The notes under the pieces were generated by a model. The model made no database searches and was not told the DNA's origin. It saw nothing but the letters and a program-made list of their open reading frames with translations. From an uncultured Roseburia sp. (GTDB lineage Bacteria; Bacillota; Clostridia; Lachnospirales; Lachnospiraceae), in assembly GCA_947174805.1 (NCBI GenBank), contig CAMWKH010000029.1, positions 1-39,685 of the forward strand: a stretch of DNA of 39,685 nt, given 5' to 3'. Shown here piece after piece: positions 4,676 through 25,317 of the stretch; position 1 is the stretch's first letter; every line of letters begins with the position of its first letter. The position numbers and the translations under genes are program-made.

Positions 4676-5602
4676 ATGCAGGGGATACCAAAAGAAATGA
4701 CTTCTGAGGAGTTGCGAAAGCTTCAGCTTTTGGAGTTGGATATTTTAAAAGAAGTGGACCGTATCTGCCGGAAAAATCAAATTAAATACTCTATATGCGG
4801 AGGCACCCTGCTTGGTGCTGTAAGGCATAAAGGGTTTATACCCTGGGATGATGATATTGATGTGGTAATGCTGCGGGAAGACTATGACAGATTTTTCGCT
4901 GTGTGTAAAGAAGAACTAGATGCAAAATATTATGCCCAGAGCCTTGAGACAGATCGTTTGTACAGGTGGGCCTATGGGAGAATCCTTTTAAACGGGACAA
5001 GTTTTGTCAGGTGCGGCCAGGAACACTTAAAAGCCCAGACCGGTGTGTTTATCGATATTATTCCATGTGATACGTTATCGGATCATCTGTTTATCCGGAA
5101 AGTACAGAGAGGTCTTGCATTTGTTATGAGAAAAATGCTGTACGCCCCGGTGGGAAAAGTCAGGATGAAGGGGACCATGAAAGGTTTTGGATTTGCATTC
5201 CTAAGCCTTTTTGGCAGAAAAATTCCGGAAATGCTCTTAAAGCTTATCTGCAGCCTATCCTCTTCCCAAAATACGGAGTATCTTGAATATTACGGTCTTA
5301 TGACACTTAGGGAAGATGCAAAACTAAAAATAGGTAAAAAAGCCTTTCGTAAAAAAAGGAAACAGTTAAATCGTAATTCCTCCTTGAGAGAGCGTATTCT
5401 CTATGATTATGGAGTCGGTGCGATCAAACGGGAATGGTTTTCAAAAACAGAGGATATTTGGTTTGAAGACTTTTATGCAAAAACCATTGCGGATTATGAT
5501 GGATGGCTAACCTTTGAGTATGGAGACTATATGGAGCTGCCCCCTATGGAGAGCAGGGTTCCTCAGCAGACGGTTTCCAGTTTTAGCTTTGGTGACTATT
5601 AA
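4676..5602 (+). CDS. LicD family phosphotransferase
   Basis: A 308-residue LicD protein. Residues about 41-65 hold CGGTLLGAVRHKGFIPWDDD, the LicD/nucleotidyltransferase-fold motif with the metal-binding aspartates (58-60, 62). The end YGDYMELPP is shared with the truncated LicD at the window start. LicD enzymes attach phosphocholine, or in some loci phosphonates or other phospho-groups, to sugars using CDP- or CMP-activated donors. GGGGAGAG precedes the ATG. It opens the plus-strand gene series and is followed within 33 bases by an aminotransferase and then by a cytidylyltransferase fusion, so its donor may be made by those neighbours. The exact group transferred is not deducible. Confidence 0.9.
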   Translation: MQGIPKEMTSEELRKLQLLELDILKEVDRICRKNQIKYSICGGTLLGAVRHKGFIPWDDDIDVVMLREDYDRFFAVCKEELDAKYYAQSLETDRLYRWAYGRILLNGTSFVRCGQEHLKAQTGVFIDIIPCDTLSDHLFIRKVQRGLAFVMRKMLYAPVGKVRMKGTMKGFGFAFLSLFGRKIPEMLLKLICSLSSSQNTEYLEYYGLMTLREDAKLKIGKKAFRKKRKQLNRNSSLRERILYDYGVGAIKREWFSKTEDIWFEDFYAKTIADYDGWLTFEYGDYMELPPMESRVPQQTVSSFSFGDY

Positions 5603-5635
5603 TGCCAGACAGTCCGGCAGAAAGGCAGTTGATTT

Positions 5636-6709
5636 ATGAATTATTATGTAGACGAACATATTAAAAATACAAAACGTGTTTTTCCCGGCCAGGGAAGATA
5701 TGACTACCTCCGGTATGATATGAATGAAAATCCGGAAGGTCTGCCCAAAGAATTTGTGGATTCTGTACTACAGGAAATCACACCGGAATTTCTTTCCGTA
5801 TATCCGGAGCCTGACAAATTTTTAAATAAGTATGCGTCTTTTATACATGCACAGTATGAAAATGTCCTCGCAACCAACGGTTCCGATATGGCAATTCGTT
5901 ATCTTTTGGAAACCTTTGGGGAAGAGGGAAAAGAAGTGGTGACAGTTGCGCCCTCTTTTGAAATGTATTGGGTGAATTGTTCTATTTTGGGACTGAAACA
6001 TGTGCCTGTGGCTTATGAATCGGATATGAGCATAAAGACCGAAAATATTGTGAATGCAATCTCGGAAGACACCAGAATTGTAGTTTTGGTCAATCCGAAT
6101 AACCCTGTGGGTAATGTTTATTCTGAAGATGATTTTAAATCTATTGTTTCACGGGCGAGGGATGCAGGCGCTATTGTAATCGTGGATGAAGCTTATCATT
6201 ATTTTTATCCAAACACATTTATGGAATATGCGCTTAAAGGTGAAAACGTGGTTATCCTGCGCACCTTTTCAAAGCTGCTTTCCCTGGCAGCATGCAGAAT
6301 CGGAGTTATCATCAGCAATCCCAGAATCATTCAGTATGTGAAAAATGCAAAGCTGACTTTCGATGTTAATTCAGTTGCTCTTTTGTTTGCAGAAAAAATA
6401 TTGGACCATCCAGAGTTAATTGCAGAGTTAATTGAAACCGAGAAGGCAGGAAAATCATATGCGCTGAAGGAATTGCAGAAAAAAGGATATGAATACAGGG
6501 ACTGTGAAGGAAATTACTTTTTGGTAAAACCCCGCCATCCAGCACAGGAAGTGGCAGAAGCGCTAAGGAGCCGGAAAAAGATTCTGGTTCATACATTTTC
6601 CAATGAATTGCTAAAAGACTACTTGAGAATATCAACCGGCTCAAGAAAAGCCATGGAAGTATTTGTAGAAGCTTTTTTTGAAACAGACGAATCCCACAAT
6701 GGACAATAG
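5636..6709 (+). CDS. HisC-like class I/II PLP aminotransferase
   Basis: A 357-residue fold-type I PLP enzyme resembling histidinol-phosphate aminotransferase and CobD-type threonine-phosphate decarboxylase. Visible markers are ATNGSDMAI, VNPNNPVG, VDEAY and TFSK, with the predicted PLP lysine K213. RISTGS near the C-terminus supplies the substrate-carboxylate or phosphate arginine. In this setting, between LicD and a cytidylyltransferase fusion, a role in making an amino-alcohol phosphate or similar amino compound is more likely than histidine synthesis, because no other his genes are present. The distinction between transamination and decarboxylation cannot be made from the sequence alone. 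Confidence 0.85.
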   Translation: MNYYVDEHIKNTKRVFPGQGRYDYLRYDMNENPEGLPKEFVDSVLQEITPEFLSVYPEPDKFLNKYASFIHAQYENVLATNGSDMAIRYLLETFGEEGKEVVTVAPSFEMYWVNCSILGLKHVPVAYESDMSIKTENIVNAISEDTRIVVLVNPNNPVGNVYSEDDFKSIVSRARDAGAIVIVDEAYHYFYPNTFMEYALKGENVVILRTFSKLLSLAACRIGVIISNPRIIQYVKNAKLTFDVNSVALLFAEKILDHPELIAELIETEKAGKSYALKELQKKGYEYRDCEGNYFLVKPRHPAQEVAEALRSRKKILVHTFSNELLKDYLRISTGSRKAMEVFVEAFFETDESHNGQ

Positions 6710-6751
6710 ATAAAATTTGGGAAAATAAATGCAGACGGCAGGTGAATTATA

Positions 6752-8095
6752 TTGATAAAAGTAATTACATATGGAACATTTGATCTGCTTCACCATGGCC
6801 ATATTCGTTTGCTTCAGCGGGCAAAAGCCCTGGGGGACTATCTGATTGTAGGAGTAACTACAGATGATTTTGATAAAAGCCGCGGAAAAATTAATGTGCA
6901 GCAGTCACTTATGGAGAGAATCGAGGCGTTACAGGATCTTGGGATTGCAGACGAAGTGATAGCGGAAGAATACGAGGGACAAAAAATTGACGATATCAAG
7001 CGGTACGATATTGATATTTTTACCGTGGGCTCTGATTGGGAAGGCCATTTTGATTATTTAAAAGAATATTGTGAGGTTATTTATCTAAAAAGAACCGAAG
7101 GAATCTCAAGCAGTGAGATTCGGAGGAGACAGGGGATTCGTTTGGGGCTGATAGGGGATTCTCCTGTCCTTTGCAAATATAAAAGGGAAGCGGAGATTGT
7201 GAATGGGATTGATGTGACCGCTGTCTGTACGGACAATGAAGAAATCATGGGAGAGGTACAGGGGCAGGACATATCGGTATGTTCTTCTTATGATGAATTG
7301 TTGGATTTATGCGACGCTGTATATATTATTACCCATCCTTCCAGACATTATGATGATATAAAGAGAGCCCTCCTAAAGGGCAGGCATGTTTTGTGTGAGT
7401 CTCCCATTACAGTGAAGTATGGGGAGTGTATGGAGTTATTTCGTTTGGCTTCAGACAAGGGCCTGGTTTTGATGGATGCCATAAAAACAGCGTATTCAAC
7501 AGCTTTTAACAGGCTTTTGCTTTTGGTAAAGGGCGGAAAAATCGGGAAAGTTCTGTCGATAGATTCCACCTGCACCAGTTTGGGCAATATATATGAATGG
7601 GATAAAAGTATTATCAGAAAGTCCTGGAACAGCATCTGTGCCTGGGGGCCAACTGCTTTACTTCCTATTTTTCAAATAGCAGGTACAGGGTATCGCAAGA
7701 AAACCCTCACCAGTTATATGTTGAGTGAAGAAGAAAAATTCGATGCCTATACAAAAATAGATTTTATTTTTCCGGGCCTGGCGGCATCTGCCCGTGTTGG
7801 GACGGGGGCGAAATCAGAGGGAGACCTTGTCATCTCAGGAACGAAGGGTTACATTTATGTGCCGGCGCCCTGGTGGAAAACAGATTATTTTGAAGTCCGG
7901 TATGAAAATCAGGAAAATAACAGGCGCTATTTTTATCAGCTGGACGGGGAAGGAATCCGGTATGAAATTCTTGCCTTTTTAAGGGCTATGGAATCAGGAA
8001 AGCGAAAGAATTATCTGAATGAAGATGTATCAGGCATGATAGTAAAAATTATTGAAGAATTTGAATCAGGCACAGGGGTGCAAAAACTTATTTAA
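6752..8095 (+). CDS. Fusion of TagD-type cytidylyltransferase and Gfo/Idh/MocA oxidoreductase
   Basis: A 447-residue two-domain protein. Residues 1-130 are a glycerol-3-phosphate or ethanolamine-phosphate type cytidylyltransferase: YGTFDLLHHGH (HxGH at 14-17), the RTEGISSSEIRRR signature loop and a VGSDW motif. From about residue 131 (RLGLIGDSPVL) a Gfo/Idh/MocA Rossmann domain follows, with HVLCESPI where the family has its conserved EKP. The start is TTG at 6752, chosen because the HxGH domain begins there and GGCAGGTG lies upstream. Joining an activation domain to an NAD(P) oxidoreductase suggests that one substrate is redox-modified and activated as a CDP derivative, plausibly for LicD. 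The substrate is unknown. Confidence 0.85.
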   Translation: MIKVITYGTFDLLHHGHIRLLQRAKALGDYLIVGVTTDDFDKSRGKINVQQSLMERIEALQDLGIADEVIAEEYEGQKIDDIKRYDIDIFTVGSDWEGHFDYLKEYCEVIYLKRTEGISSSEIRRRQGIRLGLIGDSPVLCKYKREAEIVNGIDVTAVCTDNEEIMGEVQGQDISVCSSYDELLDLCDAVYIITHPSRHYDDIKRALLKGRHVLCESPITVKYGECMELFRLASDKGLVLMDAIKTAYSTAFNRLLLLVKGGKIGKVLSIDSTCTSLGNIYEWDKSIIRKSWNSICAWGPTALLPIFQIAGTGYRKKTLTSYMLSEEEKFDAYTKIDFIFPGLAASARVGTGAKSEGDLVISGTKGYIYVPAPWWKTDYFEVRYENQENNRRYFYQLDGEGIRYEILAFLRAMESGKRKNYLNEDVSGMIVKIIEEFESGTGVQKLI

Positions 8096-8113: not shown

Positions 8114-8875
8114 ATGAAAGAGGACAGCAAGAGAATCTACGGAAAAGTTTCAACGATTAATACGGATGAAGTGAAGCAGTTGTATGCAGAAAGAAGCGGC
8201 AGGAGCAAAACCGTCCACGTAGATTCCCCGGTGGTATTAAGCGGAGATGTGGATGTGGAAAATATAGAATTGTGGACATCATGGGAGTTAAAAAAGTGGT
8301 TTCCACAGCTTTTGTTAAATGAAGACAGCACCGTATTTGAGCTTGGATTTGGGACCGGCCGGATGACAAAATACATTGTGCCTCTGGTGAAGCAGTATGT
8401 AGGAATTGATTATGTGGAAGAATTTGTAAAGATTGCGCAGGAGCGGGATGATATTAAAAGGAAGGAAAACGCAATTTTTTTAAATGCAGATTTTAAGTCA
8501 TTCTTAGACAATCGGAGGCAGATGGAACTGCCTGAATTTACACACTTCTTTCTATCCGGCGGGGTCTTTATGTACATGAACGACGATGTAGTGGAAGAAT
8601 GTATTGAAAAAATGGAAGGAATGCTGGCTAAAAACAGTAAGATATATCTCTCAGAGCCCATTGCACTTTTGGAACGGCTGACATTGGATTCCTTTTTTTC
8701 TGAATCCTTAAGCCATAACTACAGCGCAATTTACCGCACAGAAGAAGAGTATAAAAAGATGTTTAAACCGTTATTTGACAAGGGTTTTCAGCTTAAGGTG
8801 AGCGAGCTGTTTTTTGAAAATGATATTAAAAAGCAGAAGGAGACACAGCAATGGATGTTTATCATGGAACGGTAA
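8114..8875 (+). CDS. Class I SAM-dependent methyltransferase
   Basis: A 253-residue protein with the SAM-binding motif I VFELGFGTGR near residue 76, motif II YVGIDYVEEF, and LNADF and HFFLSGGVFMYM for the later core strands. AAGGAG precedes the ATG by six bases. Its last eight codons overlap the start of the DUF115 gene, so the two are probably translationally coupled. The target may be the product of the upstream LicD/cytidylyltransferase set or a sugar in the next module. Nothing in the sequence fixes the acceptor. Confidence 0.8.
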   Translation: MKEDSKRIYGKVSTINTDEVKQLYAERSGRSKTVHVDSPVVLSGDVDVENIELWTSWELKKWFPQLLLNEDSTVFELGFGTGRMTKYIVPLVKQYVGIDYVEEFVKIAQERDDIKRKENAIFLNADFKSFLDNRRQMELPEFTHFFLSGGVFMYMNDDVVEECIEKMEGMLAKNSKIYLSEPIALLERLTLDSFFSESLSHNYSAIYRTEEEYKKMFKPLFDKGFQLKVSELFFENDIKKQKETQQWMFIMER

Positions 8876-10071
8876 AAGATATGAAAACCGTGGAATTAAG
8901 AAACTGTGGCGCGAAGGAGTTTATTGAGAGATTACAGGGAAGAAAAGTTATATGTTTTGGCGCCGGAAGCATGTTGATTGAGGCGGATTACGAGGTGCTG
9001 AAAATTGATCATCTGGAAGAGCACATTGCCTTTTTTATTGACAATGACACAAATAAACATGGATTAAAATATAAATACCGGGGTTATGAGTATGACATTA
9101 AGAGCGTTGATGCGCTGAATGGCATAGACGTAAAGGATTATGTGCTTTTGATTACATGTGCAGTTTATGTTGAGATTTATAAACAGCTTCGGGATATACC
9201 GGCAGCCGGAGGACTTGAATGCTATATGTACAATGTGGTGTGCAGCTATCCAGAACTTGATGTCAATCAATTTTTTACAAAAGAAATAGAAAAACACCCT
9301 TATAAAGATTGGAAAGCGGTATTAAAAAGCCTGAACTTAAAAGATAAGCATAAGGGGGAGAGATGTTTTGTCATCGGCAATGGGCCCAGCCTGACAGTGA
9401 AAGATTTAGACTTGTTAAAGGATGAAGTGACCTTTGCGGTAAACAGGATTTTCAAATTGTTTGACGAAACAGTGTGGAGGCCCACATATTACTTTTGCAT
9501 AGATTATCTTTTGTATGGGCTTGATTATAAAGAGATAAATAATGTAGAAGCCAAGCTGCGCTTTATCCCGATTCAAAGAGCTCTTGCGGCAGGTGCAGTA
9601 TTTGATGAGATTACATATTATAACAGGGAAATTAACTGTGTCACCATAAAGGAAGGGGAAATCGTCAGAGGGAAAGAGTTTGAATTTTCCGATGATTTTG
9701 AAAAAGTTGCATACGGGGGGCAGACCGTTTTGTATGACACCCTGCAGATAGCTGCTTATATGGGATTTTCTGAGATTTATCTGATTGGAGTGGACTGTGA
9801 TTTTAAACAGGAAGTTTTGGAAGATGGTACAGTTATAGAAAATAACAGTAAAAAGGAACACTTTAATGAGAAGTATGATGAAGGGTTTGATAAAGCGGTT
9901 GCAGTGGTAGCTCCGGTGTACGCCTTGATTGCCGCCTTTCAGAAGGCGAAGGAGAAGTGTGAGGAAAAGGGAATTGTTATAAAAAATGCCACCAGAGGCG
10001 GGAAACTTGAGGTGTTTGAACGGGTTTCACTGGAAGATGTGCTGGCAGATGAAATGAAGGAGAACATGTAA
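8851..10071 (+). CDS. DUF115 / MptE-like protein, candidate glycosyltransferase
   Basis: A 406-residue protein. An N-terminal Rossmann-like region starts at KVICFGAGSM, and the C-terminal half carries the DUF115 (6-hydroxymethylpterin pyrophosphokinase MptE-like) signature CFVIGNGPSLTVKDLDLL and GFSEIYLIGVDCD. The same domain forms the core of Maf proteins, which attach nonulosonic acids to flagellin. The gene overlaps the methyltransferase by 25 bases, with AAGGAG before the ATG at 8851. A second ATG at 8881 fits the length of its paralogue at 14953-16143 better but has no clear ribosome site. Sequence similarity to that paralogue is obvious over the whole length (for example HIAFFIDNDTNKHGLK against HIAFLVDNDTNKQGLK). 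A glycosyltransferase role is inferred. Confidence 0.8.
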   Translation: MDVYHGTVKDMKTVELRNCGAKEFIERLQGRKVICFGAGSMLIEADYEVLKIDHLEEHIAFFIDNDTNKHGLKYKYRGYEYDIKSVDALNGIDVKDYVLLITCAVYVEIYKQLRDIPAAGGLECYMYNVVCSYPELDVNQFFTKEIEKHPYKDWKAVLKSLNLKDKHKGERCFVIGNGPSLTVKDLDLLKDEVTFAVNRIFKLFDETVWRPTYYFCIDYLLYGLDYKEINNVEAKLRFIPIQRALAAGAVFDEITYYNREINCVTIKEGEIVRGKEFEFSDDFEKVAYGGQTVLYDTLQIAAYMGFSEIYLIGVDCDFKQEVLEDGTVIENNSKKEHFNEKYDEGFDKAVAVVAPVYALIAAFQKAKEKCEEKGIVIKNATRGGKLEVFERVSLEDVLADEMKENM

Positions 10072-10072: not shown

Positions 10073-10945
10073 ATGGAATGTAGAATATGTGGAAATAAGG
10101 ACTCTCAGGTAGTATATAAAGGCCGTATCCGGGACGGGGCTTTTGGAAACTATACTAACCATGACGTAGAAATGCATCAGTGCCAAAAATGCGGTGCGAT
10201 ATATCATGAATGCAGCAGAGATAAAGAGTTTTATGAAAGCAGCGAATACCGGGAAAAGATGGGGCAGAAAACGGATGATTATGCGGTACTCCACGATAAG
10301 GAAGTGCTGGATAAACTGAACTATACAGGGACAGATATTTTCAGGGATAAGACTGTTGCAGATGTGGGCTGCGGAGGTGGAAGTTTCCTGGATTTTGTTT
10401 CAGGTGCGGCTTCACAGGTGGTAGGGATAGAGCCTACCCAGGCATTTAGGGAAAAACTTTCTGAAAAAGGATACCATATGTATACATATGTGGGAGATGC
10501 ACTGAAGGATTATGAGGGCAAAGTGGATGTTGTCACTTCCTTTGATGTGATTGAACATGTGGAAAATCCCCGCATATTCATGGAGGAATGTTTTCAGCTA
10601 TGCTCAAAAGGGGGCAGGGTGATAGTTGGCACCCCTACCGAGCATCCCATTATGCGGATGGCATTGGGAGAAGAGTACGACAGCTTTCTCTTTTCCACTC
10701 AGCATCTGTGGGTTTTGAACAAAGAGAGCTTGGAACTTTCCGCAAAACTTGCAGGTTTTCGGAACATTGAAGTGAAATATAAACAGCGGTATGGCCTGGG
10801 CAACCTTGTCTCCTGGCTGAAAAATAAAAAACCAATGGGAAACGTGTCATATCCATATATATCTGAAAGCGTGAACAAAAACTGGATGTTAAACAGTGAA
10901 GAGTGCGGTTTGGCGGATTATATTGTGGTATATGCAGAAAAATAA
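10073..10945 (+). CDS. SAM-dependent methyltransferase with N-terminal zinc-ribbon-like motif
   Basis: A 290-residue protein. The N-terminus has paired cysteines (CRICG and CQKCG), as in the zinc-ribbon that precedes many sugar C- or O-methyltransferases. The SAM core follows: VADVGCGGGSFLDF, VVGIEPT, VTSFDVIEHV and GGRVIVGTPTE. It starts one base after the DUF115 stop with GAAGGAGAACATG overlapping the end of that gene, so they form one unit. Sugar nucleotides or CMP-linked keto sugars from the neighbouring module are plausible substrates; this is inference from position. Confidence 0.8.
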   Translation: MECRICGNKDSQVVYKGRIRDGAFGNYTNHDVEMHQCQKCGAIYHECSRDKEFYESSEYREKMGQKTDDYAVLHDKEVLDKLNYTGTDIFRDKTVADVGCGGGSFLDFVSGAASQVVGIEPTQAFREKLSEKGYHMYTYVGDALKDYEGKVDVVTSFDVIEHVENPRIFMEECFQLCSKGGRVIVGTPTEHPIMRMALGEEYDSFLFSTQHLWVLNKESLELSAKLAGFRNIEVKYKQRYGLGNLVSWLKNKKPMGNVSYPYISESVNKNWMLNSEECGLADYIVVYAEK

Positions 10946-10982: not shown

Positions 10983-12005
10983 ATGAAATCATTGCAGGTT
11001 TTGGACTGTACATTGCGGGATGGCGCACAGGCAAATGGAGCGAATTTTGGAAAAAACGCAATAAAAGATATTATAGATAATCTGTCCGCAGCAAAGATGG
11101 ATATTATTGAGTGCGGATTTTTAAAAGAGTGTGAGTATGAAGAGGGAAAGACGTATTATCCCCAGCCCAGCTGTGCAAAGCCGTATATCCCTGCTTCAAA
11201 AGGCAGTTCCATTTATGCGGCATTAATGGATTTTGGCAGATATGATGTTGACAGCTTAGAGGAAAATGATGGAACAACTTTCGATTTAATACGAATCAGC
11301 TTTTTTGAAAAGGATGTGCCCAATGTAGAGCCTTTTATTAAGAAAGTAAAGGATAAAGGCTATAAGGTTTCCATCCAGCCCATGGACACTTTTTCCTATG
11401 AGGAAAAGAATATTTTACAAATTATCGAAGTGGCAAACAGGCTGCACCCGGAAGCACTGTCCATGGTGGACACGTATTCCCTGGCAACAAAGGATGATAT
11501 TGCAAGGGTATATAAGATATACGAAGAACATTTGTCTAAGGATATTAAAATTGGTTTTCATTCCCATAACAACCAGCTGAATTCTTTTGCCTTGGCAGAG
11601 TTTTTCCTGGAGCAGATTGTACCGGAGCGGTCCGTTATTGTGGACGCCTCTTTATATGGTATGGGAAGAGGGGGCGGAAACTTAAATACGGAGTTATTTG
11701 CGGAATACTTAAACCGCAGAGGGATAAAGTCATATGACATGAAACCCATATTGGATATGATAGATGTCTACCTCACAGAGTTTAAAAAACATTACGAATG
11801 GGGTTATTCCATGGCCATGATGTATGCAGGCATTTATGGAGTTCATGTATTTACCACGGCGTACCTGGAAAATAAGCCGGGGGTGACAAGTTATGATTTA
11901 AAGTGCATGTTTGAAATGCTGGATGAACATAAAAAGAAAAGATATGATTATGATTATCTGGATGAAATTTATGAAGCATATATGAAAAGAAAGAATGGTG
12001 GATGA
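10983..12005 (+). CDS. HMGL/DmpG-like aldolase
   Basis: A 340-residue TIM-barrel enzyme of the HMG-CoA lyase / 4-hydroxy-2-oxovalerate aldolase superfamily. The N-terminal metal-binding motif LDCTLRDGAQANG and the downstream GFHSHNNQ (the HxH metal ligands) are both present, as is the barrel strand motif IIECGF. Family members join or cleave pyruvate (or acyl-CoA) units and carbonyl compounds. Here it is encoded directly upstream of a CMP-sugar synthetase, a split transketolase and a KdsC-like phosphatase, and its stop overlaps the next start (ATGA). A sugar-forming aldol step that builds a 2-keto acid is the natural reading. No CoA-dependent or catabolic partner genes are present. Confidence 0.85.
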   Translation: MKSLQVLDCTLRDGAQANGANFGKNAIKDIIDNLSAAKMDIIECGFLKECEYEEGKTYYPQPSCAKPYIPASKGSSIYAALMDFGRYDVDSLEENDGTTFDLIRISFFEKDVPNVEPFIKKVKDKGYKVSIQPMDTFSYEEKNILQIIEVANRLHPEALSMVDTYSLATKDDIARVYKIYEEHLSKDIKIGFHSHNNQLNSFALAEFFLEQIVPERSVIVDASLYGMGRGGGNLNTELFAEYLNRRGIKSYDMKPILDMIDVYLTEFKKHYEWGYSMAMMYAGIYGVHVFTTAYLENKPGVTSYDLKCMFEMLDEHKKKRYDYDYLDEIYEAYMKRKNGG

Positions 12006-12664
12006 AAGTGGGCAAAAGGACGGTAGGGATTATTCCCATCAAAATGCACAATACGAGACTGCCGGGAAAGAATATAAAACCATTAGGCGAGGGAAAGGTT
12101 TTGTGCCAATATCTGTTTGAGACTCTTTCCCATGTGAAACAAATTGATGAGATATATGTGTACTGCAGTGATGAGGGCATACAAAATTATATGCCCCAGG
12201 GTCTCCGCTTCCTGAAGCGGCCGGAGTGGCTGGATGGGGATACTGTAAAATCCAAGGATATTCTTCATGAGTTTATTAGGGAAGTTGAAGCGGATATCTA
12301 TGCTTTGATGCATGTGACACAGCCTTTTTTGACAGCAGGCCATATTGATGAAGTGGTGGAAAAAGTAAAGACGGATGTGTATGATTCCGGGTTTGTTGCC
12401 AGGGAGATCAAAGAGTTTGCCTGGTATGGCGGCCAGCCTGTAAATTACTCCTTAAAGGACGTGGTACGGACACAGGAATTGCAGCCGGTTTATGTCGAGG
12501 GCGAACTTTTTGTTTTTGAGAAAGAGGTGTTTACTGTTTTAGGCCGCAGGATTGGAGAACATCCCTATATTCAGCCTGTGACATGGGAGGAGAGCATCTG
12601 CATAGATGATGAGGAGGATTTCCGCATGGCACAGGCTGCTTTAAAACTTCATCGAATGGATTAA
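12002..12664 (+). CDS. Acylneuraminate cytidylyltransferase family protein (NeuA/KdsB-like)
   Basis: A 220-residue protein with the N-terminal CTP-binding signature VGIIPIKMHNTRLPGKNIKP, the general form of CMP-sialic acid and CMP-Kdo synthetases. HVTQPFLTAGHIDEV corresponds to the conserved L(Q)PTSP strand, and a C-terminal IDDEEDF supplies acidic residues. The gene overlaps the aldolase stop by four bases. This enzyme should activate a 2-keto-3-deoxy or related ulosonic sugar with CMP. It is distinct from the LegF-like synthetase at 26655-27410, so the locus has two CMP-sugar pathways. Confidence 0.85.
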   Translation: MKVGKRTVGIIPIKMHNTRLPGKNIKPLGEGKVLCQYLFETLSHVKQIDEIYVYCSDEGIQNYMPQGLRFLKRPEWLDGDTVKSKDILHEFIREVEADIYALMHVTQPFLTAGHIDEVVEKVKTDVYDSGFVAREIKEFAWYGGQPVNYSLKDVVRTQELQPVYVEGELFVFEKEVFTVLGRRIGEHPYIQPVTWEESICIDDEEDFRMAQAALKLHRMD

Positions 12665-12687
12665 CGGGTGCAAAGGGGGCGTAAAAC

Positions 12688-13521
12688 ATGAAGACGACAG
12701 GCACAATAGATTTTGACAGTCTGCGGAGGATTGCGCATGACAACAGAAAAAAAATTCTCGATATGGTTTATTCTGGCGGTTCCGGCCATATTGGAGGCGC
12801 ACTATCAGCAGTTGATGTTATTACATATCTGGGGGAGTGTGTGATTGATTATGACAGCGGGGAGAGGGATAAGTTTCTCTTGTCCAAAGGACATGCCGTA
12901 CCGGCTCTCTATGCGGAACTCCATCATTTAGGGTATATAGAGGACGGGGAACTGCAGACATTTCGGAAAATCAACTCAAGGCTTCAGGGGCATACCAATT
13001 TGCATCATATGCCATTGACGGATATTACCACCGGTTTGCTGGGGCAGGGTCTCTCCTACGGCGTTGGTATGGCTTTTGCAAAGAAATTAAAAAACAGCAG
13101 AGACCATGTTTTCGTCATGATAGGGGACGGAGAAATGCATGAGGGGCAGATTTGGGAAGCCTTGATGCAGGCAGGTCATTATAAACTGGATAATCTGATT
13201 CTAATTATTGACCGTAACGGACTGTGTTCTCATCAGCCTGTGGAAAATGTGATAAGTATAGAACCGCTGAGAACACGATTGGAAGCTTTTGGATGGAATG
13301 TAAAGGAAATTAACGGTCACAGCATGGAGGAAATCCATTCCTGCGTGTCCGGATTAAATTCCCAATTTGGAAAACCTAAGTGTATTATTTCTCATACGGT
13401 AAAAGGAAAGGGAATCAGTTTTATGGAGAATAACGGAAAGTGGCACAGAAACGTTCCCAATGAGGAGGAATATAAAGCCGCATGTGAAGAACTGAGATTG
13501 TCCGGGGAGGAAACAATATGA
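12688..13521 (+). CDS. Transketolase, N-terminal (TPP-binding) subunit
   Basis: A 277-residue protein equal to the first half of transketolase. The thiamine diphosphate and metal motif is GDGEMHEGQIWEA followed by IDRNG, and SGGSGHIGGALS and SKGHAVPALYAEL are conserved substrate-channel segments. Split transketolases usually act with a separate C-terminal subunit, which follows at once with a four-base overlap (ATGA). Its place between a CMP-sugar synthetase and a KdsC-like phosphatase argues for two-carbon transfer in the synthesis of a special sugar, not general pentose metabolism. Confidence 0.9.
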   Translation: MKTTGTIDFDSLRRIAHDNRKKILDMVYSGGSGHIGGALSAVDVITYLGECVIDYDSGERDKFLLSKGHAVPALYAELHHLGYIEDGELQTFRKINSRLQGHTNLHHMPLTDITTGLLGQGLSYGVGMAFAKKLKNSRDHVFVMIGDGEMHEGQIWEALMQAGHYKLDNLILIIDRNGLCSHQPVENVISIEPLRTRLEAFGWNVKEINGHSMEEIHSCVSGLNSQFGKPKCIISHTVKGKGISFMENNGKWHRNVPNEEEYKAACEELRLSGEETI

Positions 13522-14447
13522 AGCATTATCCATACAGCGTTCCGAAGGATGTAATAGGGCATAAACTGATAGAGATAGCCAGGGATAACCAAAATATCGT
13601 GGTGTTGTCCAGTGATGTATCAGTCTCTACTAATGTTGAAATGTTTCGCAAAGAATATCCGGAACGCTTTTTTGAACTGGGAATTGCGGAGCAAAGCACA
13701 ATGAGCATTGCCGGTGGTTTCGCATCGGAAGGCTTTGTGCCTGTATATGTTGCACTGGCTATATTTTCAAATGGGATGACTTGGGCCCAGACGCGCCAGG
13801 TGTGCAATGCAGGTTTGAATGTTAAGATCATCGGGACCCATGCCGGGGTGGATGACGGCCAGGACGGTTCCGGGCATCACGCCACGGAAGACATTGCAAT
13901 ATCCAGGGTATTACCTGGAATGACGGTTTTATCTCCGTCAGATAAATACGAAGTTGCCGCGGCTATAGAGGCCATGGTTCACCATGCAGGTCCTGTATAT
14001 ATGAGGGTTGCCAGAGAAGAACAGCCAGTGATCCACAGCGAAAACTGTACATTTCCTATAGGAAAGGCGGAGGTGCTAAAAGACACAGGAGATGACTTTG
14101 CAGTAGTGTTTGAGGGGTCTGCACTAAAACAGGCGCTGGAAGGCTTTGAGCTGGCTTGTTCCAGAGGGAAAAAAGGAAAGCTGGTTTCTGTGAGGACAAT
14201 CAAACCTATCGATAGGGAATGTATCCATGAACTGGCAGATTCTGTTGACACCATTGTGGTCGTGGAGAACCATTCTGTCTTAGGAGGATTATACAGTACC
14301 ATTTGTGAAAGCCTGGCCGGAAAAAAGGCCAGGGCGGTAATAAAATCTGTGGGATTTTTGGATAAGTTTGCAGAGTCTGGATCTTCAAAAGATATTAAAG
14401 AAAAATATGGATTGAGTGCAGAACAGGTTGTAAAGGCTATGGAATAA
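13518..14447 (+). CDS. Transketolase, C-terminal subunit
   Basis: A 309-residue protein equal to the second half of transketolase. It has the pyrimidine-binding domain with the catalytic Glu in FELGIAEQSTMS, the loop GSGHHATEDIAI, and the C-terminal domain (IVVVENHSVLGGLY). The start overlaps the stop of the N-terminal subunit, with GGGGAGG upstream, so the subunits should be made in equal amounts. Both halves are complete, which supports a working enzyme dedicated to this operon. Confidence 0.9.
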   Translation: MKHYPYSVPKDVIGHKLIEIARDNQNIVVLSSDVSVSTNVEMFRKEYPERFFELGIAEQSTMSIAGGFASEGFVPVYVALAIFSNGMTWAQTRQVCNAGLNVKIIGTHAGVDDGQDGSGHHATEDIAISRVLPGMTVLSPSDKYEVAAAIEAMVHHAGPVYMRVAREEQPVIHSENCTFPIGKAEVLKDTGDDFAVVFEGSALKQALEGFELACSRGKKGKLVSVRTIKPIDRECIHELADSVDTIVVVENHSVLGGLYSTICESLAGKKARAVIKSVGFLDKFAESGSSKDIKEKYGLSAEQVVKAME

Positions 14448-14465
14448 ATGAGGCGTGCATAGAGA

Positions 14466-14963
14466 ATGAAAGTAAAATATTTTGTAATGGATGTGGACGG
14501 AACCTTGACGGACGGAAAAATTTATATGGGCGCAGAGGGGGAAATGTTCAAGGCATTTGATATTAAAGACGGCTGTGGAATCCATAACTTACTTATTCCT
14601 TCCGGGGTTACTCCGGTAATTATTACAGGGAGAAGTTCCCGGATTTTGGAAAACCGCTGCAGGGAACTGGGAATTTCGGAAGTGTACCAGGGAGTGGAGA
14701 ATAAAACAGAAAAACTGGAGGAGCTTCTTTCGAAAGCCAGGTGCAAATACGATCATGTGGCATATATCGGAGATGACATCAATGACCTGCCCTGTATGGA
14801 AGTGATAAAAGGCGCAGGGGGGCTTGTGGGCTGTCCCACTGATGCAGCAAAAGAGGTAAAAGCAATTGCAGACTTTATAAGCGTCAGATGCGGAGGAAGC
14901 GGGGCGGTTCGGGAATTTATAGAGTGGATATTGGAGCACCAGGAGGGAACGTATGAATTTTAA
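14466..14963 (+). CDS. KdsC-like HAD phosphatase
   Basis: A 165-residue C0-type HAD hydrolase without a cap domain. The nucleophile motif is DVDGTLTDGKIYM (D9 and D11), motif II is ITGRSS, and the metal-binding motif IV is YIGDDINDLP. This matches KdsC, the Kdo-8-phosphate phosphatase, and the phosphatases of nonulosonic acid synthesis, both in length and in motifs. It probably removes phosphate from the ulosonic product before CMP activation by the 12002-12664 enzyme. It overlaps the next DUF115 gene by eleven bases. Confidence 0.88.
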   Translation: MKVKYFVMDVDGTLTDGKIYMGAEGEMFKAFDIKDGCGIHNLLIPSGVTPVIITGRSSRILENRCRELGISEVYQGVENKTEKLEELLSKARCKYDHVAYIGDDINDLPCMEVIKGAGGLVGCPTDAAKEVKAIADFISVRCGGSGAVREFIEWILEHQEGTYEF

Positions 14964-16647: not shown

Positions 16648-17763
16648 ATGAGATATTGTAAAAGATGTGTGATGCCAGATACAAGACCAGGAATTACTTT
16701 TAACGAAGAAGGTATCTGTTCCGCTTGTCAGTCTTATGAAAGAAGAAAATTTATTGACTGGGATAAAAGATGGAAAGAGTTTGAACAACTCTGCGACAAG
16801 TACCGGGGCTCCAATGGAAGCGACCCCGACTGCGCCGTGGCTGTTTCCGGGGGGAAAGATTCTCATTATCAGGTTCACCTTTTAAAAAATATTATGCATA
16901 TGAATCCCATTCTTTTTTCAGTAGAAGATAATTTTCCCATGACAGAAGCGGGTAAACATAATCTGAAAAATATTTCCGAGGAATTTGGATGCAATATTAT
17001 CAGTCTAAAGCCAGATATCAGTACGCAGAAGAGGCTAATGAGATATATGTTTAAAACATATGGAAAGCCTACCTGGTATATTGACAGGCTTATCTATACA
17101 TATCCGCTTATTATGGCATTAAAATTTAATACACCCTTGTTAGTTTATGGGGAAAATGTAAGTTATGAGTATGGCGGTACCGATGCAAAGGAGACCTATT
17201 CTGCAAAAGAGCAGGTAAATAACGGAGTGGCCAGCGATTTCAGCGATAGTGAGCTTGTGGAAAAGGCAGGCATTACGATGAATGACCTTGTGTTGACAAA
17301 AGCGCCGTCTGTCCAGGAGTTAGACAAGCTTGACCCGATTTATCTTTCTTATTTTACCCCCTGGAACAGTGTGACAAACTATGAGTTTGCAAAGAAGCAC
17401 GGTTTTCATGATCTTACCCATGAGTGGGATAGAACCCATCATGTAGAGAATTTTGACCAGGTGGACAGCCGGGCATATTTAGTTCATTCTTGGATGAAAT
17501 ATCCCAAATTTGGGCATCAGTTTGCCACAGACTATGCTTCTAGGTTTGTCCGTTACGGAATGATATCCAGAGAGGAAGCCGTGGATTTGGTTAAGAAACA
17601 TGACCATGCCTTAGACCCGCTTTCTGTAAGGGATTTTTGTGAATTTTGTGGATACACGGAAACAGAATTCTGGAATATTATGGATGGATTTTATAACAGG
17701 GAATTATTTGAAAAAGATTTTCAGGGCAAGTGGGTTCTGAAACATCCGGTATGGAAGGATTGA
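16648..17763 (+). CDS. N-acetyl sugar amidotransferase (PseA/WbpG-like)
   Basis: A 371-residue protein starting MRYCKRCVMPDTRPGI, with CSAC following, which is the signature of the N-acetyl sugar amidotransferase family (PseA, WbpG, LegX-like). The ATP-pyrophosphatase P-loop is AVSGGKDSHYQ near residue 70. Family members turn an N-acetyl group into an acetamidino group on a nonulosonic acid or sugar nucleotide, using ammonia from a glutaminase partner. No HisH/HisF-like partner is encoded in this window. GGGAGGAAAAT precedes the ATG. It opens the legionaminic-like gene series and suggests that the final sugar carries an amidino group. Confidence 0.88.
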   Translation: MRYCKRCVMPDTRPGITFNEEGICSACQSYERRKFIDWDKRWKEFEQLCDKYRGSNGSDPDCAVAVSGGKDSHYQVHLLKNIMHMNPILFSVEDNFPMTEAGKHNLKNISEEFGCNIISLKPDISTQKRLMRYMFKTYGKPTWYIDRLIYTYPLIMALKFNTPLLVYGENVSYEYGGTDAKETYSAKEQVNNGVASDFSDSELVEKAGITMNDLVLTKAPSVQELDKLDPIYLSYFTPWNSVTNYEFAKKHGFHDLTHEWDRTHHVENFDQVDSRAYLVHSWMKYPKFGHQFATDYASRFVRYGMISREEAVDLVKKHDHALDPLSVRDFCEFCGYTETEFWNIMDGFYNRELFEKDFQGKWVLKHPVWKD

Positions 17764-17817
17764 TGAGTTTTAAAATCTTATCATAAAGTGTTCAGTGCAA
17801 GGAAGGGACATCTGTAG

Positions 17818-18894
17818 ATGGATAAAGAAAAAATTCCAATTTTTCTCGGAAACAAAGCTATGTCAGTGGTAGATGCCATGGAAAAAATAGATAAAAACGC
17901 AAGAGGTATTCTGTTTATTGTAAATGAAGGGGGAGTTTTGCTCGGCAGTATTACAGACGGTGATATCCGCAGGTGGCTCATAAAGACTGGCAATTTAAAT
18001 GGGGCTGTTTCAGAGGCAATGCATACAAATCCAAAATATGTTTTTGAGGAAGAAATTTTCAAAGCGGATAAAATTATGAAATCTGAATTAATTTCGGTGC
18101 TGCCTGTTTTAAAAAAGGATAAGTCAGTGCAAGATATTCTTTTTTCCACAGATGTTTTGGAATGTGATGTTCCAAAGACAAATAAGAGTTTGTCTGGGAT
18201 TCCTGTGGTAATTATGGCAGGAGGAATGGGTACTAGGTTGTATCCTTATACGAAAATACTGCCCAAGCCTTTAATCCCCATTGGAGAGACGCCTATTGTG
18301 GAGCGGGTTCTAAACTGTTTTTTAAAATATGGGATAAACGAATATTATATGACAGTGAACTACAAAAAGAGCATGATAAAGTCTTATTTTGGGGAATTAA
18401 ATCCAGAATACAATATTCGATATGTGGAGGAAGATAAACCATTAGGTACAGGGGGAAGTATTAAACTGATAAAAGAAAAGTTTAAAAAACCTTTATTTGT
18501 TGTTAATTGTGATGCATTGGTTTTTGCTGATTATTTTGATATATATCAATATCATAGAAAAGCGGAAAATGATATTACGATTGTATCATCATTAAAGAAC
18601 ATTACTATACCATATGGTGTGCTCCATTCCAAAGAAAATGGCCAGCTTACAGGGATAGAAGAAAAACCGAAGCTATCATATTTCATTAATACGGGGATGT
18701 ATATCATAAATCCCTCGGTGATAGATAAAATTCCCGTAAATACCGTGTTTCATATGACGGACCTAGTGGATTCTGTCATGAGGGATAAGGGAAAAGTGGG
18801 AATGTATCCTGTCAGCGAAGATTCTTTCCTGGATATGGGGGAATTTGGGGAAATGCGCCGCATGGAAGAAAAATTAAATATTGTTTCTGTTTAA
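17818..18894 (+). CDS. CBS-domain sugar-1-phosphate nucleotidyltransferase (PtmE-like)
   Basis: A 358-residue protein. The first 120 residues form a CBS pair (GSITDGDIRRWL in the first repeat, ISVLPVLKKDKSVQDIL in the second). The rest is a sugar-phosphate nucleotidyltransferase with MAGGMGTRLYPYTKILPKPL and the LGTGGSI motif. The same order is found in Campylobacter PtmE, the glucosamine-1-phosphate guanylyltransferase that starts the GDP-linked legionaminic acid pathway. Its neighbours LegG, LegC, LegH, LegI and LegF support that role. The nucleotide preference (GTP or other) is inferred from PtmE, not seen directly. Confidence 0.82.
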   Translation: MDKEKIPIFLGNKAMSVVDAMEKIDKNARGILFIVNEGGVLLGSITDGDIRRWLIKTGNLNGAVSEAMHTNPKYVFEEEIFKADKIMKSELISVLPVLKKDKSVQDILFSTDVLECDVPKTNKSLSGIPVVIMAGGMGTRLYPYTKILPKPLIPIGETPIVERVLNCFLKYGINEYYMTVNYKKSMIKSYFGELNPEYNIRYVEEDKPLGTGGSIKLIKEKFKKPLFVVNCDALVFADYFDIYQYHRKAENDITIVSSLKNITIPYGVLHSKENGQLTGIEEKPKLSYFINTGMYIINPSVIDKIPVNTVFHMTDLVDSVMRDKGKVGMYPVSEDSFLDMGEFGEMRRMEEKLNIVSV

Positions 18895-18913
18895 ATTCAT
18901 AAAAAAGTATAAT
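18885..18913 (+). promoter_or_regulatory. Possible internal promoter before legG
   Basis: A perfect TATAAT at 18908-18913 lies 17 bases after a weak -35 (TTCTGT, 18885-18890). The surrounding 63-base gap between the PtmE-like gene and legG is unusually AT-rich for this otherwise tightly packed series. The weak -35 makes this uncertain. Confidence 0.3.
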
Positions 18914-18957
18914 CACAATAATTGATAAAATTATAAAACTAACGAGGTAGTACAGAT

Positions 18958-20118
18958 ATGAAAAAGGTGTGCGTAATTACAGGAACCAGGGCAGAATACG
19001 GCTTATTAAAACCCTTAATAGATAAAATAGACAAAGATAAGGAATTTCAACTACAGCTGGTGGTAACAGGGATGCATTTATCGCCTGAATTTGGCCTGAC
19101 ATATCAAGAGATTGAAGAAGACGGGTTTGAGATAACAGAGAGAAACGAAATGATTTTAAGTTCTGATACGCCCAATGGAATTACAAAGTCTATTGGATTA
19201 GGGATGATAGGATTTGCAGATATTTTTACAAGAATCATGCCTGATATCATAGTATTGCTTGGTGACAGATATGAATTACTTGCAGCAGCAACAGCAGCAC
19301 TGGTACATCGGATTCCAATTGCCCATCTTCATGGCGGAGAGTCAACAGAAGCAGTGATCGATGAAGCAATCAGACATTCTATCACTAAAATGAGTGCTTT
19401 ACATTTTACATCAACGGAAGTGTACAAAAAACGTGTGATTCAACTGGGTGAAGAACCGAAACGGGTATTTTGGGTTGGCGCATTAGGAATTGAAAATATT
19501 AAGACAGAAAAACTTATGGATAAAGACAAATTATCTCAGAGCATTGGATTTCCACTTGATATGCCATATATGGTGGTTACTTTTCATCCGGTTACTCTGG
19601 AAAAAAATACTGCGCAGAATCAGATTGAAAATCTGCTTCAGGCTTTGCAGAAGTTCAAAGAATATAAAATTCTTTTTACTAAAGCAAATTCAGATACAGA
19701 TGGACGGGTGATAAACCATAAAATAGAAGAATTTGTTCATAAAAATGCAGAACGTGCTTATGTGGCCAGTTCACTTGGAATGGTGAGGTATCTTAGCGCA
19801 CTGAAATATTGTGTTATGGTGGTGGGCAACTCGTCAAGCGGAATAATAGAAGTACCATCATTTAAAATACCAACTGTTAATATTGGAAACAGGCAGTTGG
19901 GCAGGGTAAAGGCAGATTCAGTAATTGATTGTGGTGAAAGCACACTGGAAATAGTTGAAGCCATAAAACGGGCAAAAGCCTTATATGAGGGAAACGGGTT
20001 ATATAATATGAAAAATCCATATGAAGGTGTATGTCCCTCAGAAAGCATATTATATGAAATCCGTAAGTTTTTGTCAGAAGGCAGTAGCACTATCAAATCC
20101 TTTTATAGCATTGTTTGA
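18958..20118 (+). CDS. legG: LegG/NeuC-like hydrolysing nucleotide-sugar 2-epimerase
   Basis: A 386-residue protein of the hydrolysing UDP-GlcNAc 2-epimerase type. The opening KKVCVITGTRAEYGLLKPL, the core LLGDRYELLAAATAAL, AHLHGGESTEAVIDEAIRHS, the TFHPVTLE motif and the GNSSSGIIEVPSF nucleotide-binding loop are all present. In the legionaminic route LegG releases the nucleotide and epimerises C2 to give the 2,4-diamino-mannose-type sugar for LegI. The gene follows the PtmE-like enzyme. A damaged fragment of a second copy lies at 26245-26658. The actual substrate could differ, given the odd enzymes that follow. Confidence 0.85.
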   Translation: MKKVCVITGTRAEYGLLKPLIDKIDKDKEFQLQLVVTGMHLSPEFGLTYQEIEEDGFEITERNEMILSSDTPNGITKSIGLGMIGFADIFTRIMPDIIVLLGDRYELLAAATAALVHRIPIAHLHGGESTEAVIDEAIRHSITKMSALHFTSTEVYKKRVIQLGEEPKRVFWVGALGIENIKTEKLMDKDKLSQSIGFPLDMPYMVVTFHPVTLEKNTAQNQIENLLQALQKFKEYKILFTKANSDTDGRVINHKIEEFVHKNAERAYVASSLGMVRYLSALKYCVMVVGNSSSGIIEVPSFKIPTVNIGNRQLGRVKADSVIDCGESTLEIVEAIKRAKALYEGNGLYNMKNPYEGVCPSESILYEIRKFLSEGSSTIKSFYSIV

Positions 20119-20131
20119 GGGAGGAAAATAA

Positions 20132-21532
20132 ATGTTTGAAAAAGAAAAAAAACTTGTATGCATACAGGGTATGGGGTTTGTAGGCGCAGCAATGGCGGTT
20201 GCGGTGGCCAGTGCAAAGGATAAAGAAGGACAGCCTATTTATAATGTTATGGGAATTGAATTGCCCAATGAAAAAGGAAAAGCCATAGTAAAGAAGATTT
20301 GCAATGGAAAATTTCCTTTTGAGAATGTTGACAAAGATTTGCAGAAGGCACATAGGGAATGTATAGATAATAAAAACCTATCAGCCACAGTGGATACAGA
20401 CTGGTTCCAAAAAGCGGATATCATACTTAGTGATATTAATTTAGATGTTTCTTACCGGGACAATGGAGAACCATACCTTGATTTAGAAATGTATAAGAAT
20501 GCAATACATATGATAGGCAGCAAAATGAAAAAGGGAACATTACTTATTGTGGAAACAACCGTGCCGCCTGGAACTTGTGAAAATGTAATTAAACCAATTT
20601 TAGAAGAAGAGTTCGGGAAACGTGGTTTAGATAAACAGGAAGTTCTAATTGCGCATTCTTATGAAAGGGTCATGCCTGGGGCGGATTATTTCAATTCTAT
20701 TGTAAATTACTGGAGAGTATATTCAGGAATAAATGAAAAATCGGCTGAGATGTGTGAAAAACTTTTGAGCAATATTATTAACACAAAAAAATTTCCTTTG
20801 ACGAGACTGTCATGTACAACGGCATCGGAAGCAGCCAAGGTGCTGGAAAATTCTTACAGGGCAGTTACGATTGCCTTTATGGAAGAATGGGGAAGGTTTG
20901 CAGAGAATGCGGGGTTTGACTTGTTTGAAGTAGTGGATGCGATCCGTAAACGCCCAACACATTCCAATATGCGTCAGCCGGGTTTTGGAGTGGGGGGATA
21001 CTGCCTGACAAAAGACCCGTATTTTGCAGCTCTTGGTGCAAAGGATATTTTAAAGCTGCAGGGGTTGGAGTTTCCGTTTTGTTATGAGGCAGTCCGGATG
21101 AACAATCATATGCCTATTGTATCACTTGACAAGATACAGCATTTGTTAGGCGGCAGCCTACAAGGGAAAAGGATACTGGTTCTGGGAGTGAGTTACAGGC
21201 AGGATGTGGGAGATACCCGTTACTCACCCACCGAGATTTTTGCTAGGGAAGCGATGCATCGGGGGGCTGAACTGACATACCAGGATCCTTTGGTAAATGT
21301 ATGGAGCGAGATGGGGGTGCCAGTGGAGAAAGACATACCTTCTGCAGAGCTTTTTGATGTGATAGTTTTTACTGTTGGTCATAAACAATATTCTTCTATT
21401 AATTTTAAGAAATGGTTAAGCAATAAAAATCTAGTATTTGATGCGAACCATGTATTAGCCAGAGAACAAATAAATGATATAAGAGAAGCCGGATGTAGAT
21501 TTTCAGCGATTGGAATGGGAGGAATTGGATGA
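20132..21532 (+). CDS. Nucleotide-sugar 6-dehydrogenase (UDP-Glc/GDP-Man dehydrogenase family)
   Basis: A 466-residue protein. The N-terminal Rossmann site is CIQGMGFVGAAMAV, TTVPPGTCENVI is the conserved substrate loop, ASEAAKVLENSYRAV carries the catalytic lysine, and FGVGGYCLTKDPY holds the expected catalytic cysteine (C291). LVLGVSYRQDVGDTRYSPT opens the C-terminal domain. Such enzymes oxidise C6 of a nucleotide sugar to a carboxylate in two NAD steps. GGGAGG precedes the ATG, and the gene overlaps the next SDR by four bases. It is not a normal member of the legionaminic pathway, which keeps C6 as a methyl group. Confidence 0.88.
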   Translation: MFEKEKKLVCIQGMGFVGAAMAVAVASAKDKEGQPIYNVMGIELPNEKGKAIVKKICNGKFPFENVDKDLQKAHRECIDNKNLSATVDTDWFQKADIILSDINLDVSYRDNGEPYLDLEMYKNAIHMIGSKMKKGTLLIVETTVPPGTCENVIKPILEEEFGKRGLDKQEVLIAHSYERVMPGADYFNSIVNYWRVYSGINEKSAEMCEKLLSNIINTKKFPLTRLSCTTASEAAKVLENSYRAVTIAFMEEWGRFAENAGFDLFEVVDAIRKRPTHSNMRQPGFGVGGYCLTKDPYFAALGAKDILKLQGLEFPFCYEAVRMNNHMPIVSLDKIQHLLGGSLQGKRILVLGVSYRQDVGDTRYSPTEIFAREAMHRGAELTYQDPLVNVWSEMGVPVEKDIPSAELFDVIVFTVGHKQYSSINFKKWLSNKNLVFDANHVLAREQINDIREAGCRFSAIGMGGIG

Positions 21533-23648: not shown

Positions 23649-23683
23649 TGGGAATAGAAAAGAGATACTGATTAGGGTGGAAC

Positions 23684-24253: not shown

Positions 24254-24268
24254 AAGGATGGTGCATTT

Positions 24269-25267: not shown

Positions 25268-25317
25268 AGAATATATACTAATGCTCTTTAAAAGGACATA
25301 AAGGAGGAAGTTTTGGA

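Follow-up and report, generated by a model that had tools for sequence, protein, structure and literature searches.

The window analyzed here is a stretch of 39,685 nucleotides (contig C29 of a 3.1 Mb genome of an uncultured Roseburia sp., in 68 contigs and 91.77% complete), and at positions 10983-14963 it carries five closely packed genes, all on the + strand, for an aldolase, a cytidylyltransferase (CTPT), a transketolase (TK) split over two genes, and a phosphatase. These genes probably form an aldolase-based variant of the pathway for cytidine monophosphate (CMP)-activated 3-deoxy-manno-octulosonic acid (Kdo), making a CMP-activated 3-deoxy-2-ulosonic acid, as judged from the enzyme families, the gene order, its recurrence, the exchange of places with KdsA and KdsD, and the failure to detect either of these in the genome, all of which are sequence evidence. 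That they constitute a CMP-ulosonate pathway with an aldolase and a TK is well supported by context. The larger finding is a wider cassette: the common unit is the aldolase with a CMP-synthetase, often with a phosphatase, and not the five-gene set proposed as the unit in an earlier note on this DNA, since the TK is an addition found at only four loci, which belong to one small CTPT clade. The five genes are as follows.

10983..12005, + strand: DRE-TIM (HMGL-like) aldolase, 340 amino acids (aa); PF00682, 76.2 bits (cut-off 29)
12002..12664, + strand: CTPT of the NeuA/KdsB superfamily, proposed CMP-ulosonate synthetase, 220 aa; PF02348, 53.6 bits (cut-off 22.6)
12688..13521, + strand: TK N half, binding thiamine diphosphate (ThDP), 277 aa; PF00456, 144.9 bits (cut-off 22)
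13518..14447, + strand: TK C half, pyrimidine-binding and C-terminal domains, 309 aa; PF02779, 114.9 bits (cut-off 27), and PF02780, 63.8 bits (cut-off 25.9)
14466..14963, + strand: KdsC/YrbI-family HAD phosphatase, 165 aa; TIGR01670, 150.2 bits (cut-off 106.95)

Organization and Recurrence of the Gene Set

All five are real genes, and their coordinates, Pfam matches and the TIGR01670 match agree with the earlier description of five overlapping or adjacent genes from these enzyme families. The aldolase and CTPT genes overlap by 4 bases, as do the two TK halves, and the phosphatase gene overlaps by 11 bases a DUF115 gene that begins at 14953; directly upstream of the aldolase are a methyltransferase gene and another DUF115 gene. 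Intact copies of the full set are those of the window and of two other Lachnospiraceae loci, L136 and L138; that of the Oscillospiraceae locus L137 is incomplete. The order at L136 (CTPT 86% identical) is methyltransferase (cut by the contig end), aldolase, CTPT, TK N half, TK C half, KdsC and DUF115, while at L138 (CTPT 62% identical), where the wider surroundings differ, it is DUF115, aldolase, CTPT, TK N half, TK C half, methyltransferase, KdsC and DUF115. L137 (CTPT 64% identical) has the aldolase, the CTPT and both TK halves. Because this order is repeated at L136 and L138, and partly at L137, the set is not due to chance; the conservation that the earlier note proposed to check by genome neighborhood is found, cut short at L137, and its view that the genes belong together is supported by context. 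At L137 (11571-12818), the pyrimidine domain of the TK C half continues into an ABC-2 transporter domain, through a natural fusion, a deletion or an assembly join.

The TK version of the cassette is rare. In samples of 397 family and 391 class genomes, the window aldolase at E <= 1e-95 matched no genome but its own, and the same held for the TK N half at E <= 1e-100 in 392 genomes from the order (the family, class and order samples overlap). The additional TK-type copies all come from the best 80 of 380 CTPT relatives. TK halves also occur beside such an aldolase, with no CTPT, at two loci (L129 and L224).

The CTPT Family and Its Partners

The CTPT has weak PDB matches to PpNeuA (E 9.1e-6), KdsB, and CMP-N-acetylneuraminate synthetases, and it does not qualify as a KdsB, its score against the best KdsB-type model (NF009905) being 33.7 bits versus a cut-off of 255. 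Neighbors on the same strand and within 4 kb (phmmer, E <= 1e-10) were tabulated for the best 80 of 380 CTPT relatives. An HMGL aldolase adjoins the CTPT at 46 of these 80 loci (43 with open frames of >430 aa, fused to a further domain, and three short ones with a TK), and KdsA at 22, with both present at two. Five loci have an HpcH/HpaI (GarL-like) aldolase with neither HMGL aldolase nor KdsA, a sixth has one beside other partners, and nine have none of the three partners, four of these having KdsD. The aldolase frame lies -87 to +27 bases from the CTPT frame in 39 of the 46. KdsD follows the partner, occurring at 19 of the 20 loci with KdsA only, 0 of the 41 with the fused aldolase only, and 0 of the three TK loci, while KdsC is shared (45/80 overall; 27/41 fused-aldolase, 15/20 KdsA-only, and 2/3 TK loci). 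A relative of the window's methyltransferase is present at 18 of the 80, including two of the three TK loci. At 24 loci the DNA stops within 4 kb of the CTPT, and the other 56 agree with the whole (27 fused aldolase, 17 KdsA, five HpcH, two TK, four none, one both), with KdsD at 16 of the 17 KdsA loci and 0 of the 27 fused-aldolase loci.

Model scores agree with these names at the one KdsA locus scanned (L161), where KdsA reaches 409.9 versus an equivalog cut-off of 314 and KdsD 299.3 versus a KpsF subfamily cut-off of 203.7. The HpcH-type protein encoded at L215 is similar to GarL/HpaI, scoring 169-172 bits and staying under the cut-offs. At L188, one of the mixed loci, two CTPT genes each lead a separate operon. 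The recurring theme across loci is a synthase or aldolase, a phosphatase, and a CMP-synthetase. This context supports the earlier reading of the CTPT as a CMP-synthetase, here of a Kdo-type setting: its relatives adjoin Kdo-type genes, and the aldolase replaces the phosphoenolpyruvate (PEP)-dependent synthase.

In a phylogenetic tree of the CTPTs (a quick search, with SH-like approximate likelihood ratio support only), the four TK loci, including the window, form one clade (support 99, starred) inside a 40-row set (96, starred) of 34 fused-aldolase loci, the four TK loci, one with no partner and one mixed. The KdsA loci form a separate 22-row branch (92, not starred), and seven fused-aldolase loci, L067, and the five HpcH loci group in another part of the tree (89, with weak resolution). 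Changes of partner are far fewer than in shuffles, though near relatives make a low count easy. The CTPTs thus largely cluster by partner. The CTPT also matches eight plasmid records, of which three were inspected. On two enterobacterial plasmids the CTPT relative is accompanied by genes for an inositol-monophosphatase-family protein and a synthase of the NeuB family; on a Sulfitobacter plasmid it is found with a glycosyltransferase and an oxidoreductase, no synthase or aldolase being listed. Phage sequences gave no CTPT match at E <= 1e-10.

Identity and Neighbors of the Aldolase

The structural model of the aldolase aligns with DmpG-type aldolases across 315-320 residues, and the protein has the DRE-TIM fold with the Asp and HxH residues that are presumably its metal ligands. 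It is not itself a 4-hydroxy-2-oxovalerate aldolase by TIGR03217, scoring 74.5 bits versus an equivalog cut-off of 286. The residue after the RDG motif, Gln16, is shared by all four TK-type aldolases, and elsewhere this position is mostly Arg or Tyr; we take it to correspond to the catalytic His of BphI/DmpG. It is very improbable that this HMGL protein is instead a Claisen-type condensing enzyme or lyase using acyl-CoA and not a pyruvate aldolase.

The association was also examined from the aldolase side, in 200 genomes of the family, 86 of which matched at E <= 1e-20 (own genome included); neighbors within 3 kb were counted at the top 40 loci from genomes other than the window's. This sample shares some genomes with the CTPT sample (e.g., L044 and L140), and the two are not fully independent. 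A CMP-synthetase is present at 24 of the 40 aldolase loci, immediately upstream in 23; ten are CTPT relatives and 14 are related to the L035 cytidylyltransferase, itself above the cut-off of the KdsB equivalog TIGR00466 (189.7 versus 155.2, tested for L035 alone). A HAD phosphatase (KdsC type or HAD_2) is found at 17 of the 40. At another 13 (L037, L039, L048, L065, and others) the partner is an acetolactate-synthase-like ThDP enzyme and a CMP-synthetase is absent, a pairing that probably represents another undescribed sugar or keto-acid route, and three have neither enzyme. The aldolase cassette occurs in records named Clostridia, Bacteroidota, Synergistota, Spirochaetota, and Alphaproteobacteria.

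Seven plasmid records match the window aldolase, and six were inspected. Three Leisingera (Alphaproteobacteria) plasmids encode an aldolase of fused length (26-27% identical), followed by an annotated 3-deoxy-manno-octulosonate cytidylyltransferase (KdsB) and a HAD hydrolase. A cytidylyltransferase is not listed near the match on a Priestia plasmid, and the matching region of a Niallia plasmid carries no annotation.

The window's genome has a distant second aldolase homolog (L133; contig C16:15735-16601, 30% identical), ∼1.3 kb past a flagellin-domain gene with one open reading frame intervening. Most related aldolases are fused, with a C-terminal domain of ∼200 aa (e.g., L145, 883-2508). This domain had no Pfam match in four proteins, its best E in a PDB profile search was 0.14, and against DUF115 profiles it reached 34.6% probability (E 4e-4); the fused-aldolase model has a predicted local distance difference test score of 87.6, and its structure-search matches are all taken up by the barrel. 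A DUF115-like transferase was considered for this domain and is not claimed, especially because fused-length aldolases also occur beside acetolactate-synthase-like genes.

At L067 the order is CTPT, aldolase, and KdsD, with no TK, and this pairing indicates a pentose-5-phosphate acceptor at that locus. It bears on the alternative that only the route is new, in which arabinose-5-phosphate or a comparable pentose phosphate would be the aldolase substrate, Kdo-8-phosphate or some other known ulosonate its product, and the TK would do no more than tune the pentose phosphate supply. The company that CTPT relatives keep with KdsA, KdsD and KdsC at the KdsA-only loci, and the relatives of a KdsB-equivalog protein at 14 of the 40 aldolase loci, point the same way. 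We nonetheless regard a familiar product as unlikely: KdsD is lacking within 4 kb of the CTPT at every fused-aldolase-only and TK locus and was not found in the window's genome, and the grouping of CTPTs by partner, together with a residue 16 that varies by aldolase group, suggests that the substrates differ.

The Transketolase Pair

The best PDB matches of the TK halves are the N chain (6yak, E 1e-65) and the C chain (6yaj, E 2.1e-62) of a split transketolase. The two separate halves carry, in alignment, GDGE...N and GIAEQ, which we take to be the ThDP motif and the segment with the catalytic Glu, as in a two-subunit TK. This pair is a second copy, another being encoded on contig C14 of the same genome; TK-type copies read GVDDGQDG versus GISVGEDG in the genome's other pair, and the window N half shares 45-49% identity with its best matches elsewhere in the family. 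A dedicated second copy adjoining an aldolase that requires an aldehyde suggests that the TK makes that aldehyde, as KdsD does with arabinose-5-phosphate, and L067, where the aldolase has KdsD instead of a TK, fits this role.

At L224, on a Desulfobaculum bizertense plasmid (3846-8014), rfbH is followed by TK N and C halves and an aldolase relative (29.5% identical), with a DXS-like gene further along; the TK N half there and that of the window share 38% identity. At L129, the aldolase and divergent TK halves (E 1.5e-40 and 1.3e-13) lie in a sugar cluster with no CTPT.

Kdo and Nonulosonate Genes in the Genome

The KdsA model (TIGR01362) has no match in the five genes or in the window's genome (91.77% complete), and the KdsD/KpsF models match genome-wide only the CBS part of a window gene at 17818 (49.1 bits versus a cut-off of 203.7). 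A canonical Kdo pathway in this genome was therefore rejected. At E <= 0.001 the KdsA model does not pick up the single DAHP_synth_1 match in the genome (L220), which is taken for the 3-deoxy-arabino-heptulosonate-7-phosphate synthase of the aromatic pathway. By Pfam, there is no NeuB-family synthase among the five genes. The earlier statement that a PEP-dependent synthase is lacking thus applies to the five genes and, as regards KdsA, to the whole genome; it does not extend to NeuB, which is encoded at 24269-25267, 9.3 kb downstream, in a separate legionaminic-acid-type locus with its own cytidylyltransferase (26655-27410). This locus (16648-27410) comprises WbuX/PtmG-like, CBS-nucleotidyltransferase, NeuC-type epimerase, LegB/LegC-like, NeuD-like, NeuB, and cytidylyltransferase genes, with a DUF1919 spread over two open reading frames (25557-25889 and 25893-26252) and a 137-aa epimerase fragment (26245-26658).

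With a NeuB locus in the same window, the five genes might also serve two unrelated functions, the CTPT and phosphatase acting in the legionaminic acid pathway and the aldolase and TK making, e.g., a branched nucleotide sugar. The co-occurrence of a TK pair and aldolase relative with rfbH at L224 (no cytidylyltransferase listed in 15 kb), the CTPT-less cluster at L129, and the NeuB-family genes beside CTPT relatives on the two enterobacterial plasmids are in keeping with such a division. This seems quite unlikely, given that a cytidylyltransferase gene (26655) is already part of the NeuB locus, that the five genes stay together at L136 and L138 despite different settings, and that the L129 halves match the window pair far more weakly than do the best family matches of its N half.

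Phosphatase, Transferases, and Acceptor

The phosphatase has KdsC (4um5, E 2.7e-33) as its best PDB match and belongs to the KdsC family by TIGR01670, yet falls below the KdsC equivalog NF007019 (157.1 versus 208). Three genes flank the set.

8851..10071, + strand: DUF115/MptE-like (Maf-type) protein, proposed CMP-ulosonate transferase; PF01973, 56.7 bits (cut-off 34.6)
10073..10945, + strand: SAM methyltransferase associated with the set, probably a tailoring enzyme; PF13489, 77.7 bits
14953..16143, + strand: second DUF115/MptE-like protein, proposed CMP-ulosonate transferase; PF01973, 44.6 bits (cut-off 34.6)

A profile of 18 DUF115 proteins weakly matches GT42 sialyltransferases (best E 3.7e-4), and the protein at 14953 weakly matches WaaZ, the Kdo III transferase (33.1 bits, cut-off 200). 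DUF115 occurs at 36 of the 80 CTPT loci and across partner classes (5/5 HpcH, 22/41 fused aldolase, 2/3 TK, 6/20 KdsA-only, 1/9 partnerless, and 0/2 mixed), as expected of a transferase that takes a CMP-sugar of any origin. The proposal that the flanking DUF115 genes supply the transferases is thus supported by context, while the resemblance to CMP-sugar transferases is weak. We take the Maf of Clostridium botulinum to be a DUF115 protein. As described in PMC11339370, it accepts both CMP-N-acetylneuraminic acid and CMP-Kdo as donors. The window's genome has eight flagellin-domain matches, none on the window's contig, and flagellin is a possible acceptor, no more.

Proposed Pathway and Its Implications

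In the proposed pathway, the two-subunit TK would shift a C2 unit between sugar phosphates and release an aldose phosphate (C4 or C5), the job of KdsD in the Kdo route; erythrose-4-phosphate is the simplest guess. The metal-dependent DRE-TIM aldolase would then add pyruvate to this aldehyde, giving a 3-deoxy-2-ulosonate phosphate (the job that KdsA performs with PEP), after which the KdsC-family phosphatase would take off the phosphate and the CTPT would join the free acid to CMP. The DUF115 proteins may pass the sugar to an acceptor, perhaps flagellin, and the linked methyltransferase probably modifies the sugar.

All substrates, the sequence of steps, the identity of the sugar, and the acceptor are inferences, and several observations weigh against this pathway. 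L137 has a truncated TK C half and no KdsC nearby, and among the 41 fused-aldolase loci 14 lack KdsC within 4 kb, a contig end cutting some of these short. The CTPT scores under the cut-offs of all four NCBIfam models that it matches. With Gln at the presumed place of the catalytic His, the acid-base chemistry of the aldolase must differ, and the 13 acetolactate-synthase-like pairings mean that the aldolase family serves further routes. The TK is found in 0 of the 41 fused-aldolase cassettes, and the pathway as proposed does not account for the need of one clade for it. The seven fused-aldolase loci outside the 40-row set mean that partner and CTPT clade are not one-to-one, and a true exception is L143 (Treponema), which unites KdsA, a KdsA-KdsD open frame, the CTPT, and the aldolase. 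At this locus, a single 611-aa open frame (60-1892) matches KdsA and KdsD, beside the CTPT, the aldolase, and a second KdsA.

Taken as a whole, the interpretation in the earlier note is partly supported. A bolder form is conceivable, at somewhat less than even chances: an undescribed class of CMP-ulosonate pathway in which a pyruvate-type DRE-TIM aldolase replaces the PEP-dependent synthase and, in the window's clade, the TK supplies an unusual aldose phosphate, so that the product would be new to nature (e.g., a 3-deoxy-heptulosonic acid in place of Kdo). In the characterized Kdo and nonulosonic acid routes known to us, the three-carbon unit is joined by a PEP-dependent synthase. If true, a widespread aldolase route would change the genome-based prediction of such sugars, explain CMP-synthetases in operons with neither KdsA nor NeuB, and provide a new enzymatic means of producing keto-acid sugars; the unnamed "aldolase catalytic domain-containing protein" family would become a testable sugar synthase.

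Other Features of the Window

Elsewhere in the sugar cluster, positions 33322-35764 encode a PEP mutase (above the PEP_mutase equivalog cut-off) fused to a cytidylyltransferase-like domain, then a phosphonopyruvate decarboxylase (also at equivalog level), which looks like a phosphonate pathway inside the cluster. Positions 4676-8095 hold a LicD-family gene, a gene for a HisC-like aminotransferase, and one in which a glycerol-3-phosphate-cytidylyltransferase-like domain is joined to a GFO/IDH/MocA oxidoreductase. A 535-aa protein with a C-terminal citrate-lyase-ligase-like domain is encoded at 27865-29472, also in the sugar cluster.

Comparison With Known Systems

No description of the aldolase-TK-CTPT set was found in an open-access library, as judged from titles and the opening lines of abstracts, which is weak evidence of absence since most subscription papers lie outside it. 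PMC12342839 tabulates pentose phosphate genes and concerns nonulosonate flagellar genes, and PMC4744853 concerns a Gram-positive Bacillus with a gene island for canonical Kdo synthesis.

At the level of single proteins, the aldolase shares its fold, the presumed metal-ligand positions, and an Arg with DmpG/BphI and with the structural-genomics aldolase BVU_2661 (3dxi); it differs in that the five-gene set has no aldehyde dehydrogenase, that it has Gln at the presumed place of the catalytic His, and that it falls below the equivalog cut-off. The split transketolase of Carboxydothermus hydrogenoformans (6yaj/6yak) likewise has two chains and the ThDP motif, whereas the window pair lies in a surface-sugar cluster, has a second pair elsewhere in the genome, and carries its own signature, GVDDGQDG. 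With the flagellin Maf glycosyltransferases (DUF115), the window proteins share PF01973, their donor and acceptor being putative.

At the level of pathways, the nonulosonic (sialic, legionaminic, and pseudaminic) acid routes combine NeuB, LegI or PseI with a NeuA-type synthetase, and their keto-acid sugar, CMP activation, and DUF115/Maf-type transferase are shared with the proposed set; the set differs in having no NeuB, that of the window being in a separate locus with its own cytidylyltransferase. The closest parallel is the CMP-Kdo pathway (KdsD-KdsA-KdsC-KdsB): both have a phosphatase of the KdsC family, their CMP-synthetases belong to one superfamily, and KdsA, KdsD and KdsC adjoin relatives of the CTPT. 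The set is unlike that pathway in having a DRE-TIM aldolase in the place of KdsA, a split TK in the place of KdsD, and a CTPT below the KdsB cut-offs. Since the KdsA, KdsD, and KdsB cut-offs are not reached, the set would work like the CMP-Kdo pathway and not be a member of it.

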